Origin: Deltaproteobacteria bacterium
GTDB lineage: Bacteria > Desulfobacterota > Desulfobaccia > Desulfobaccales > 0-14-0-80-60-11
Assembly (NCBI GenBank): GCA_030018495.1
Contig: JASEFS010000017.1
Location: 1 to 38,391 of the forward strand
Length of the DNA: 38,391 nt
Direction of reading: 5' to 3'
In this document: piece by piece, positions 15,336 to 25,245 of the stretch
How positions within the stretch are numbered: position 1 is the first letter of the stretch
Layout of the letters: every line of letters begins with the position of its first letter
Program-made: the position numbers and the translations under genes
The notes under the pieces: generated by a model
Told to the model about the DNA's origin: nothing
Database searches by the model: none
What the model saw: only the letters and a program-made list of their open reading frames with translations

Positions 15336-15388
15336 TAGGGGCTTGATTTGTCACGGCCTTTAAAGGCGCAATGAATTGCGCCGCTACA
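15336..15388 (-). repeat. REP of the RAYT family, degenerate inverted copy D
   Basis: A 53-bp degenerate copy, in opposite orientation, of the double-hairpin element flanking the transposase at 23.4 kb. The GGCGCAAT / ATTGCGCC stem is well kept, while the TAGGGGCTTGAT half has drifted. It lies between the aldehyde dehydrogenase and PhaR-like genes, 8 kb from the transposase. Confidence 0.75.
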
Positions 15389-15461
15389 AATTGCTCAAAT
15401 TTGGCCCGGCTTAAACTCAATTCGACATAAAAGCTTTGCCGGCAAGAGCCTGGCAAAGACC

Positions 15462-22308: not shown

Positions 22309-23283
22309 ATGGAACTGGTGTTTCGGCCCCGGCGGCTGAGAAGACGGGAAGCGATCAGGAAGATGGTGCGGGAGACGGTGCTGCGGCCCGAGGACTTCAT
22401 TTATCCCATGTTCGCCGCGCCGGGCCAGAAGGTAAAGCAGGAAATCGAGGCCATGCCCGGCATCTCCCGGCTGTCGCCGGACCTTTTGGTGGAAGAGGCC
22501 AAGGCCGCGTATGACCTGGGAGTGCCTGCGGTGCTGCTTTTCGGCCTGCCCTTAAAAAAGGATGAGACCGGCAGCGACGCGGCCAACCCCAGGGGCACGG
22601 TGCAGCAGGCGGTCAGAGCCTTGAAAAAAGCGCTGCCGGACCTGGTGGTGATCACCGACGTCTGCCTGTGCGCCTATACCAGCCACGGGCACTGCGGCAT
22701 CGTGCATCGGGGCGAGATCGACAATGACGCGACGCTGGAGGTTTTGAGCGAAGTGGCCCTGTCCCACGCCGAAGCCGGTGCGGATATGGTGGCCCCTTCG
22801 GACATGATGGACGGCCGGGTGGGGGCCATCCGGGAGGCCCTGGACGAGCGGGGTTTCGAAATGGTGGCGATTCTGTCCTATGCGGTCAAGTACGCCTCCA
22901 GCTTTTACGGCCCCTTCCGGGAGGCCGCGGAGAGCGCGCCCCAATTCGGCGACCGCCGGGGCTATCAGATGGACCCGGCCAACAGCCGGGAGGCCATCCT
23001 GGAGGCGTCCCTGGACGTGGAAGAGGGCGCGGATATCATCATGGTGAAGCCCGCCATGCCTTACCTCGATATCATTTCTCAACTTGCAGGCGAGTTCGAC
23101 CAGCCCATCGCGGCCTACCAGGTGAGCGGCGAGTATGCCATGATCAAGGCCGCCGCCCAAAAAGGCTGGCTGGACGAACAGGCCGTGATGCTGGAGTCCC
23201 TGACTTCAATCAAGCGGGCCGGCGCGGATGTGATCTTGACCTATTTTGCCAAGGACGCGGCGGCGTTGGCGGCTAAATCTTGA
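22309..23283 (+). CDS. hemB: Delta-aminolevulinic acid dehydratase (porphobilinogen synthase)
   Basis: A 324-residue enzyme that condenses two 5-aminolevulinate molecules to porphobilinogen. The active-site zinc ligands are visible in [14 protein letters not shown] (Cys119, Cys121, Cys129), so it is the zinc-dependent type. The two Schiff-base lysines are Lys194 (SYAVKYAS) and Lys247 (MVKPAMPY). The N-terminus RPRRLRR and the length are standard. AAGAAAGGCGG precedes the ATG. It opens a block with ahbD and an AhbA/B-type gene, the later siroheme-route enzymes, with a RAYT transposase inserted between. Confidence 0.96.
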
Positions 23284-23301
23284 GCGCCTCATGACTAACT
23301 C

Positions 23302-23355
23302 GCAGGGGCGCAATTCATTGCGCCCTTTAAGGGCTCGATAAATCGAGCCCCTACA
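23302..23355 (+). repeat. REP double hairpin, copy A (upstream of RAYT)
   Basis: A 54-bp element with hairpin 1 GGGCGCAAT-TC-ATTGCGCCC and hairpin 2 GGGCTCGAT-AA-ATCGAGCCC, bounded by AGGGG and CCCCTA. It begins 18 bp after the hemB stop and ends just before the transposase leader. Confidence 0.9.
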
Positions 23356-23375
23356 AATGGAGCCCCTACAAATGG
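23346..23375 (+). repeat. 15-bp tandem duplication of the REP end
   Basis: AGCCCCTACAAATGG occurs twice in direct succession (23346-23360 and 23361-23375). The duplicated GGAG motifs supply the only ribosome-site-like sequences before the transposase start. Confidence 0.9.
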
Positions 23376-23383
23376 AGTTGTCG

Positions 23384-23986
23384 ATGAGAGAAGGAAATTT
23401 TTTTCAGCCTCGCAAACCATTACGCCTATCCGGTTTTGATTACGGGCAAACAGGGGCATATTTTATCACTATCTGCACGGCTGATAGGGAAAATCTTTTC
23501 GGTCATATTATTGATGGGCAGATGCAGGAAAACAAAATAGGCAAAACTGTTCATGTTTTATGGCATGATTTGAATAATAGATTCAATTCGATAGAAACAG
23601 ATGCCTTTGTAGTAATGCCGAATCATGTGCACGGCATCATTATTGTAGGGGCGCAATTCATTGCGCCCTCTAAGGGCTTGATGAATCAAGCCCCTACATT
23701 GGGTGACATTGTTCGCACTTTTAAAGCTGTCTCCAGCAGGGAGATTCGGACAAGTCTTCTTTCTCGCTTTGCCTGGCAGCGGAATTATTATGAGCATGTC
23801 ATACGGGACGATAAATCGTTAAACCGGATTAGAGAGTATATCGTTACCAACCCCTTGAGATGGGAACTTGATCGGGAAAACCCCTCCGCCCAAGGGAATG
23901 ATGATTTTGATATCTGGTTGGATGGTTTTAAGAAGAAAAGAAACCTCCAATCTGGCATAACAAAGGCTAACAAAATCAGACCTTGA
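23384..23986 (+). CDS. RAYT-type REP-associated tyrosine transposase
   Basis: A 200-residue Y1/HUH nuclease of the REP-associated tyrosine transposase family. The N-terminus FDYGQTGAYFITICTADR is typical. The metal-binding HUH motif is in VMPNHVHGIII, and the catalytic Tyr is in WQRNYYEHVIRD. The family's C-terminal YIVTNPLRWELDREN is present. An ATG at 23384 with TGGAG 6 nt upstream is preferred over starts inside the REP at 23357 and 23372. Residues from VGAQFIAPSKG through MNQAPT are encoded by an in-frame copy of the element's own REP, in a surface loop. The gene is flanked by two more copies. It lies between hemB and ahbD, and is less GC-rich than its neighbours, consistent with transfer. 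Confidence 0.92.
   Translation: MREGNFFQPRKPLRLSGFDYGQTGAYFITICTADRENLFGHIIDGQMQENKIGKTVHVLWHDLNNRFNSIETDAFVVMPNHVHGIIIVGAQFIAPSKGLMNQAPTLGDIVRTFKAVSSREIRTSLLSRFAWQRNYYEHVIRDDKSLNRIREYIVTNPLRWELDRENPSAQGNDDFDIWLDGFKKKRNLQSGITKANKIRP
23645..23698 (+). repeat. REP double hairpin, copy B, in frame inside RAYT
   Basis: A 54-bp copy (18 codons) of the element at 24101. Hairpin 2 reads GGGCTTGAT-GA-ATCAAGCCC: relative to copies A and C, a C-to-T change in one arm is matched by G-to-A in the other. Length and phase keep the transposase frame open. Confidence 0.92.
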
Positions 23987-24100
23987 TGCTGGTGTTCCTG
24001 ACCAGCGTCAGCGCGACGACGCGGATTTAATTTTGGCCTGACCTATTCGCCAGGGAGGCGGCGTCAGCAATTAAATCTTAAGAACCTTCATAATTACTGC

Positions 24101-24153
24101 GTAGGGGCGCAATTCATTGCGCCCTTTAAGGGCTCGATGAATCGAGCCCCTAC
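24101..24153 (+). repeat. REP double hairpin, copy C (downstream of RAYT)
   Basis: A 53-bp copy with both hairpins perfect and GTAGGGG / CCCCTAC ends. It closes 21 bp before the preferred ahbD start, so it lies in the ahbD leader. The 114-bp stretch before it (23987-24100) has no gene. Confidence 0.92.
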
Positions 24154-24174
24154 GCGGTGTTAAGGCTTGCTAAA

Positions 24175-25245
24175 ATGCATTATTCTGGAGGTAAAAAGGA
24201 TCAAATCCCCCCCTTGCGCCTGTTGGCCTGGGAGACCACCCGGCGCTGCAATCTGGACTGCCGGCATTGCCGGGCCGCGGCCAGTCTGGGGCCGTATCCG
24301 GGGGAACTGACCACCGACGAAGGCATCAAGCTCCTAAATGACGTGGCCTCTATGGGCCAGGCGGTGATTATTCTGACCGGCGGCGAGCCCTTGCTGCGGG
24401 AGGATATTTTTGAGCTGGCCGCCCACGGCCACCGCGTCGGCCACCGCATGGTCATGGCGGTGAACGGCACCCTGGTGACGCCGGAGATCGCCCGCCGCCT
24501 GAAAGAGGTTGGCATCCAGCGGGTGAGCATTTCCATCGACGGGGCCACCGCGGCCAGCCATGACGACTTGCGGGGCGTGCCCGGCGCCTATGAGGGGGCG
24601 CTCCGGGGTATCGCGGCGTTTAAGGAAGCGGGCTTGCCCTTTCAAATCAACACCACCATAACCAAAAACAATTTATCCGAACTGCCGGCCGTCTACGAAT
24701 TGGCCATAAGCCTGGGGGCCGCGGCCCACCACGTCTTTGTGCTGGTGCCCACGGGCCGGGGCGCGGAGATCGCGGACCAGTTGGTGTCGCCGGAAGAATA
24801 CGAAGAGACGCTCAGGTGGATGCTGGCGAGGCAGAAAGAGGGGCGGCTGCACCTCAAGCCCACCTGCGCGCCGCAATATTACCGCCTGTGGCGGGAGGAC
24901 GCGCACGCGCGCGGAGAAAAAATCACCCCGCAAACTCACGGCATGGAAGCCATGACCAAAGGGTGCCTGGGCGGCCAGGGCTTCGCGTTTGTCTCCTATA
25001 AGGGCGACGTGCAGCCTTGCGGCTACCTGGAGCAGACCGCGGGAAACATCCGGGAGCAGCCCTTCCCGGAAATCTGGGCCAGTTCTGAGCTGTTTAAGCA
25101 GTTGCGCGCGGTGGACGATTACCATGGCAAGTGTCACGCCTGCCAGTACCGCAAGGTGTGCGGCGGCTGCCGGGCCCGGGCCTTTGCCATGACCGGAGAC
25201 GCGCTGGGCGAAGACCCTATCTGCCCGTATGAGCCGATGGGGTGA
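24175..25245 (+). CDS. ahbD: Radical SAM heme b synthase AhbD
   Basis: A protein of 356 residues that in the siroheme route removes two propionate carboxyls from Fe-coproporphyrin III to give heme b. The radical-SAM cluster is CNLDCRHC (Cys25, Cys29, Cys32). The C-terminal auxiliary-cluster (SPASM-like) region has GCLGG, QPCGYLEQTAGNIREQPF and CHACQYRKVCGGCRARAF. These features and the LLAWETTRRCN opening match AhbD rather than AhbC. The longest frame starts at GTG 24157, directly behind the REP. ATG at 24175, with AAGG 9 nt upstream, is preferred. A heptamer repeat follows the stop with no gap. Confidence 0.9.
   Translation: MHYSGGKKDQIPPLRLLAWETTRRCNLDCRHCRAAASLGPYPGELTTDEGIKLLNDVASMGQAVIILTGGEPLLREDIFELAAHGHRVGHRMVMAVNGTLVTPEIARRLKEVGIQRVSISIDGATAASHDDLRGVPGAYEGALRGIAAFKEAGLPFQINTTITKNNLSELPAVYELAISLGAAAHHVFVLVPTGRGAEIADQLVSPEEYEETLRWMLARQKEGRLHLKPTCAPQYYRLWREDAHARGEKITPQTHGMEAMTKGCLGGQGFAFVSYKGDVQPCGYLEQTAGNIREQPFPEIWASSELFKQLRAVDDYHGKCHACQYRKVCGGCRARAFAMTGDALGEDPICPYEPMG

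Follow-up and report, generated by a model that had tools for sequence, protein, structure and literature searches.

A RAYT gene in the window (the whole 38,391-nucleotide stretch of DNA analyzed here) carries a REP double hairpin in frame between its HUH motif and its catalytic tyrosine, and a comparison of about 100 relatives suggests, as far as sequence can tell, that this hairpin is maintained for its DNA or RNA form, not for the encoded peptide. What the linkers are shown to retain is the GTAG and CTAC feet and a paired stem, not the peptide. On balance we lean slightly toward a reading in which RAYTs of TnpAREP subclass 2.4 house the genome's REP in a permissive linker between the HUH strand and a helix, where the substrate of the nuclease is kept as a nucleotide structure. 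The encoded nuclease would recognize GTAG-footed hairpins and cleave them at CT, and the linker copy, we infer, is one of its true substrates. The enzyme's own REP traffic would place or rewrite REPs in the linker; an intragenic REP would be hard to lose, with only in-frame loss tolerated, and would always travel with the enzyme; and the linker peptide would be a by-product. The relevant features, all on the forward strand, are as follows.

22309–23283, forward strand: hemB, 5' of the RAYT gene
23302–23354, forward strand: REP copy A, a double hairpin in the 5' flank of the RAYT gene, its 5' foot decayed to GCAG instead of GTAG
23355–23369, forward strand: additional REP 3' half-foot AAATGGAGCCCCTAC, directly after copy A and overlapping candidate start codons
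23357–23986, forward strand: RAYT/TnpAREP (Y1 HUH nuclease) open reading frame, 209 codons, open throughout, assigned from fold and profile matches
23621–23632, forward strand: HUH motif NHVH, with N79, H80, and H82 invariant in the protein alignment
23645–23698, forward strand: REP copy B, in frame, 18 codons encoding VGAQFIAPSKGLMNQAPT, the 53-nt repeat plus one base
23774–23806, forward strand: WQRNYYEHVIR, spaced as the W94/Q95/E100/H101/R104 GTAG-recognition set of E. coli TnpAREP
23837–23839, forward strand: catalytic Tyr codon in the Y motif YIVTNP, Y151 being invariant in the protein alignment
23962–24100, forward strand: second, decayed copy of the 3' end of hemB (the first being 23161–23301)
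24101–24153, forward strand: REP copy C, in the 3' flank of the RAYT gene, with GTAG and CTAC feet intact
24157–25245, forward strand: radical-SAM gene, 3' of the RAYT gene

A single double hairpin of ~53 nt is present in three in-register copies (23302–23354, 23645–23697, and 24101–24153, with start spacings of 343 and 456), which confirms the statement of the initial annotation that three copies of one double hairpin flank and interrupt the gene. Copy B has intact GTAG and CTAC feet and lies between NHVH and the catalytic Tyr codon with the RAYT frame staying open; its description as an insert of exactly 18 codons in the HUH-to-Tyr loop also holds. Within the structure model, copy B corresponds to residues 87–104, exactly between the beta-strand that includes the HUH motif (residues 80–87) and a helix (residues 105–123), and the REP-coded linker is modeled poorly (pLDDT ~56 for residues 91–100). 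A comparison of the window with Rfam gave no match. Another, degenerate copy of the same double hairpin is located on the reverse strand of the window at 15336–15389.

Several lines of sequence analysis support the identification of the gene as a RAYT. The protein matches Pfam Y1_Tnp with 25.3 bits, above the gathering cut-off of 23, and NCBIfam NF047646 REP_Tyr_transpos with 68.1 bits (E 7e-19), under the curated cut-off of 80, as a relative of that family below equivalog assignment. A structure model built from 40 family members has a mean pLDDT of 84.8, and its closest solved folds are IS200/IS605 transposases (TnpA) and E. coli TnpAREP (4er8). NHVH and WQ are invariant across the protein alignment, from which relatives bearing stop codons were left out, and the Y motif is YIVTNP in the window RAYT and YIxNNP in most relatives. 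All five residues by which E. coli TnpAREP contacts the GTAG guide (W94, Q95, E100, H101, and R104; Quentin et al., 2018; PMC6006769) are present with equal spacing, which would be consistent with binding of the protein to its own gene or mRNA. The start codon may be the ATG at 23357, 23372, or 23384.

In-frame REPs inside tnpAREP genes, generally between HuH and Y, have been described as unique to subclass 2.4 (the group 4 RAYTs of Bertels) and can be double-foot (Quentin et al., 2018; PMC6006769). Further described features of this subclass are NH[IFV]H, WQ, and YIxNNP motifs, a β3–αC insertion variable in length and sequence, and flanking REPs with GT[AG]G feet (PMC6006769). The window RAYT shares the NH[IFV]H and WQ motifs, the β3–αC insertion, and double-foot REPs both flanking and in frame, but has YIVTNP where the subclass has YIxNNP; judged by the described features, it is a member of subclass 2.4. 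An intragenic REP between HuH and Y is thus already known for this subclass, and the window RAYT adds a case. A literature search, which left most subscription papers outside its reach, found no later paper on REPs within RAYT genes than that of Quentin et al. (2018). New here are the frequencies of elements in linkers and flanks, the constraint at the nucleotide level, a palindrome that, in the layout searched, was found in Thermus only in RAYT linkers, and the usual presence of copies of the linker REP in its own genome. The 2018 study judged the insertion peripheral and perhaps of little effect (PMC6006769), whereas we measure a nucleotide constraint on it.

Other systems resemble this arrangement in part. 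TnpAREP enzymes recognize single-stranded REPs by their GTAG foot, with cleavage at CT (PMC8266576). In fold and in the spacing of the five GTAG-contact residues, the window RAYT resembles E. coli TnpAREP (subclass 2.2, PDB 4ER8), which has no linker REP, and E. coli REPs require a bulge for activity in Corneloup-type assays (PMC8266576), whereas the linker stems considered here are regular. The GTAG REPs reported by Di Nocera et al. (2013; PMC3733652) likewise lie in frame in coding sequences, though these are dispersed over many genes and the REPs described here occupy a single fixed site in the gene of the REP nuclease. Rickettsia palindromic elements are also palindromic mobile repeats found in frame in genes (review, PMC10969869), but they are ~150 bp long, lie in unrelated metabolic genes, and have no cognate nuclease gene.

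The genome to which the window belongs contains ~35 copies of the window's double hairpin, which rules out a chance origin of copy B. Across 27 aligned genomic copies, 95.1% of pair cells are paired and both-side changes occur in 21 cells at three pairs (shuffle mean 7.2), bearing out the proposal that structure is kept while sequence changes. The compensating C-to-T and G-to-A differences that had been singled out in copy B are real and fall at paired positions, but they are not special to it: the pair at which B differs from A and C, one of these three, is U-A in 22 of the 27 genomic copies and C-G in 5, with B having the majority form and A and C the minority form. This pair is a genome-wide REP variant and no mark of the internal copy. 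Judged by eye, copy B appears to be the sole REP copy of its genome deep within a real gene. Other REPs of the genome were considered as genic insertions and rejected, by eye and without gene prediction, as the long frames look spurious or the REP precedes an evident start (for example, that of a superoxide-dismutase-like protein and that of a gyrB-like protein). Elsewhere in this genome (L119, 1528–1581 and 2389–2442), a small secreted-protein-like open reading frame is bracketed by a pair of identical REP double hairpins that point the same way, lie 861 bp from each other, and share sequence past the REP.

Relatives were drawn from 80 loci on genome contigs plus 30 loci of the same phylum, giving 98 distinct linkers. 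Their ranking followed resemblance to the whole window protein, with one of the six scan peptides taken from the linker, so the sample leans toward linker-bearing relatives; several of the genomes are incomplete assemblies. Within this sample, 92 of the 98 linkers have a GTAG-type or CTAC-type foot and six have none. Related RAYTs with a REP-type hairpin at the same linker position are thus found, as the initial annotation had envisaged. The position of the linker is fixed across the family, its length ranges from 12 to 117 codons, and the sequence of the resident palindrome varies between relatives. Four linkers (L040, L056, L062, and L181) contain short in-frame tandem duplications (GAHADALS, NCAPT, ALEQRC, and TMRTMP).

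Whether the linker REP is the genome's own REP has a mixed answer: copies usually exist elsewhere in the genome, but not always. At 32 of 84 loci, the linker matches its own flanks within 1.5 kb with a score of 40 or more. An adjacent control segment does so at only 3 of the 84, all of which have either another RAYT-like copy or long internal repeats. The match to the own flank ranks in the top 5 of 84 at 41 of the 84 loci. A palindrome shared by five linkers has 2, 7, 9, 4, and 2 copies in the five genomes that own it (linker copy counted) and none in 11 of 14 non-self genomes. A second palindrome has 6, 1, and 45 copies in its own three genomes and also 4 to 22 in four others, and the linker REP and the commonest genomic REP may therefore differ. 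HdN1 has few copies of its own linker REP, related REPs being present by the dozen in two Gallionellaceae genomes. No other good copy of the linker REP was found in the Thermus scotoductus, Aquaspirillum serpens, and Fischerella genomes, so the linker REP is not always a current genomic REP. The same peptide without a genomic REP, which the initial annotation had taken as a sign of convergence, is indeed encountered in Thermus, Aquaspirillum, Fischerella, and L065, but convergence is not thereby shown because it is the nucleotides, not the peptide, that are conserved there.

Paired change inside the gene is best illustrated, from the sequences and short of proof, by the Thermus linkers. A single 29-nt layout was searched and occurs without mismatch in 3 of 27 Thermus genomes, each time in the RAYT linker. 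The outer eight and two inner pairs of these stems are constant, whereas the inner pairs numbered 9, 10, and 11 vary from genome to genome, with pairing intact throughout. The RAYTs of these genomes group in a single clade (support 100/93), two of them have an hsdS-RAYT-hsdR setting, and the cassettes may have moved by transfer. In one of the genomes, a double-foot hairpin of another kind lies close to the RAYT gene on its 5' side. A hairpin in a Thermus genome (G165) was dropped as a linker copy, as it lies ~90 nt upstream of a RAYT remnant. RAYTs lie in or beside type I restriction-modification genes at roughly a dozen of the 110 loci, in several phyla, as hsdS-RAYT-hsdR (L073, L178, and L181), as hsdM-RAYT-hsdS (L179), or in further arrangements in or beside such genes (L013, L019, L031, L085, L101, and others). 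HsdR matches over RAYT positions at several loci were discounted, being in a different frame.

Four alternatives to the substrate reading bear on these data. That the linker peptide VGA...APT is itself required, through convergence or selection, seems to us very improbable: VGA and APT recur in many linkers, but 59 of 63 VGA occurrences use GTAGGGGC and 55 of 59 APT occurrences use GCCCCTAC, far from the 4.9% and 5.8% that the genes' own codon usage predicts. Moreover, 25 of 250 matched linker pairs read the same palindromes in different frames, giving RG...APT or other peptides (L020 and L023 share 30 identical nt, translated DGRGTACRAPT in one and VGARHAVPL in the other). The inner stems of simple 28/29-nt elements, sought with a pattern that fixed the feet and left the inner pairs free, are paired at 125 of 125 positions, and 14 different arms are found among 29 linkers. 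Quasi-palindrome correction, an established mutational process in which replication slippage in a hairpin copies one arm onto the other, can keep stems perfect without selection and would yield the fully paired Thermus stems, in which three of the five inner pairs vary between genomes. Alone, however, it would not hold the outer eight nt (GTAGGGGC / GCCCCTAC) fixed while inner pairs drift, and it leaves the fixed position of the linker unexplained; we regard it as quite unlikely to be the explanation. We give a similarly low standing to autoregulation, in which the hairpin that the REP forms in the mRNA would limit RAYT expression, through slower translation or through binding by the RAYT. It accords with a nucleotide-level constraint in both frames and with the finding that 77 of the 98 linkers (and 5 of the 98 adjacent control segments) fold better than 95% of their synonymous recodings, with about one-fifth of linkers doing no better than a recoding; such a surplus of folding is nonetheless expected of any REP regardless of role, and the conservation of the feet indicates sequence recognition besides folding. 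A freshly inserted REP would look alike, and these constraint figures therefore show what is carried and not, by themselves, selection. Autoregulation and the substrate reading are compatible.

The main rival is a neutral one, which we consider possible if doubtful: REPs land everywhere, those within genes survive only in a permissive surface linker, and the linker is refilled from nearby REPs. This is essentially the reading of Quentin et al. (2018; PMC6006769), under which the linker is peripheral, and it fits with low confidence for the linker in the structure model and with the report of in-frame REPs across a wide range of other genes (Di Nocera et al., 2013; PMC3733652). It also fits with the different linker REPs of RAYTs whose cores are 70% identical, with an instance in which cores are 90% identical and the same linker palindrome is inverted, as by replacement or inversion (L064 from 5205 and L072 from 5253), and with feet in the C-terminal tails of 20 of the 98 RAYTs. 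Against it stands the frequency of elements in the linker. A full double-foot element is present in the linker at 52 of 77 loci. Outside the RAYT gene there are 33 such elements in 598 kb, and the deep interior of other open reading frames has 9 in 349 kb, counts from which a density ~300-fold over other deep coding DNA is computed. Among 52 loci with full 1-kb flanks, an intact element is found in the linker at 34 and in either non-coding flank at 19, with 18 having it nowhere but in the linker. Such an excess over the flanks would not follow simply from random landing in a tolerant loop, although part of it may be explained by protection of an intragenic copy from simple deletion. Palindromes are perfect, too, even in genomes in which no donor was found.

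Should the internal REP prove a true substrate maintained at the nucleotide level, as the substrate reading holds, subclass 2.4 would combine the enzyme and its cognate hairpin within one gene, and cognate pairs could be read from sequence by the hundred for in vitro tests. This would touch on the questions of how RAYTs and REPs remain matched and how REPs spread, and it turns the 2018 remark on the probably small importance of the insertion (Quentin et al., 2018; PMC6006769) into a testable claim. An extension that we put forward tentatively, as rather unlikely, is that in subclass 2.4 the in-gene REP is a constitutive seed, with nuclease and substrate in one gene and the flanking REPs secondary, such that horizontal transfer of the gene alone could found a population of REPs in a genome that had none. 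This is hinted at by the 18 of 34 linker-bearing loci with full flanks that have no intact element within 1 kb or in the gene tail, and by the scarcity of the HdN1 linker REP next to the dozens of related REPs in the two Gallionellaceae genomes.

The window locus itself may retain traces of its origin. The segment 23161–23354, comprising the hemB 3' end and a REP, is repeated at 23962–24153, where the hemB part is decayed and the REP is nearly identical. The RAYT gene takes its final ~8 codons and its stop from the decayed hemB duplicate. At four related loci (L161, L164, L169, and L172), hemB is followed by the radical-SAM gene with 78–228 nt to the motif of the latter and no RAYT gene between them. 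Downstream of hemB at six other loci (L158, L159, L160, L163, L165, and L171), there is a different palindromic repeat, GGTGGCACAGG...CCTGTGC, which is common after hemB among relatives of the window's family and order.
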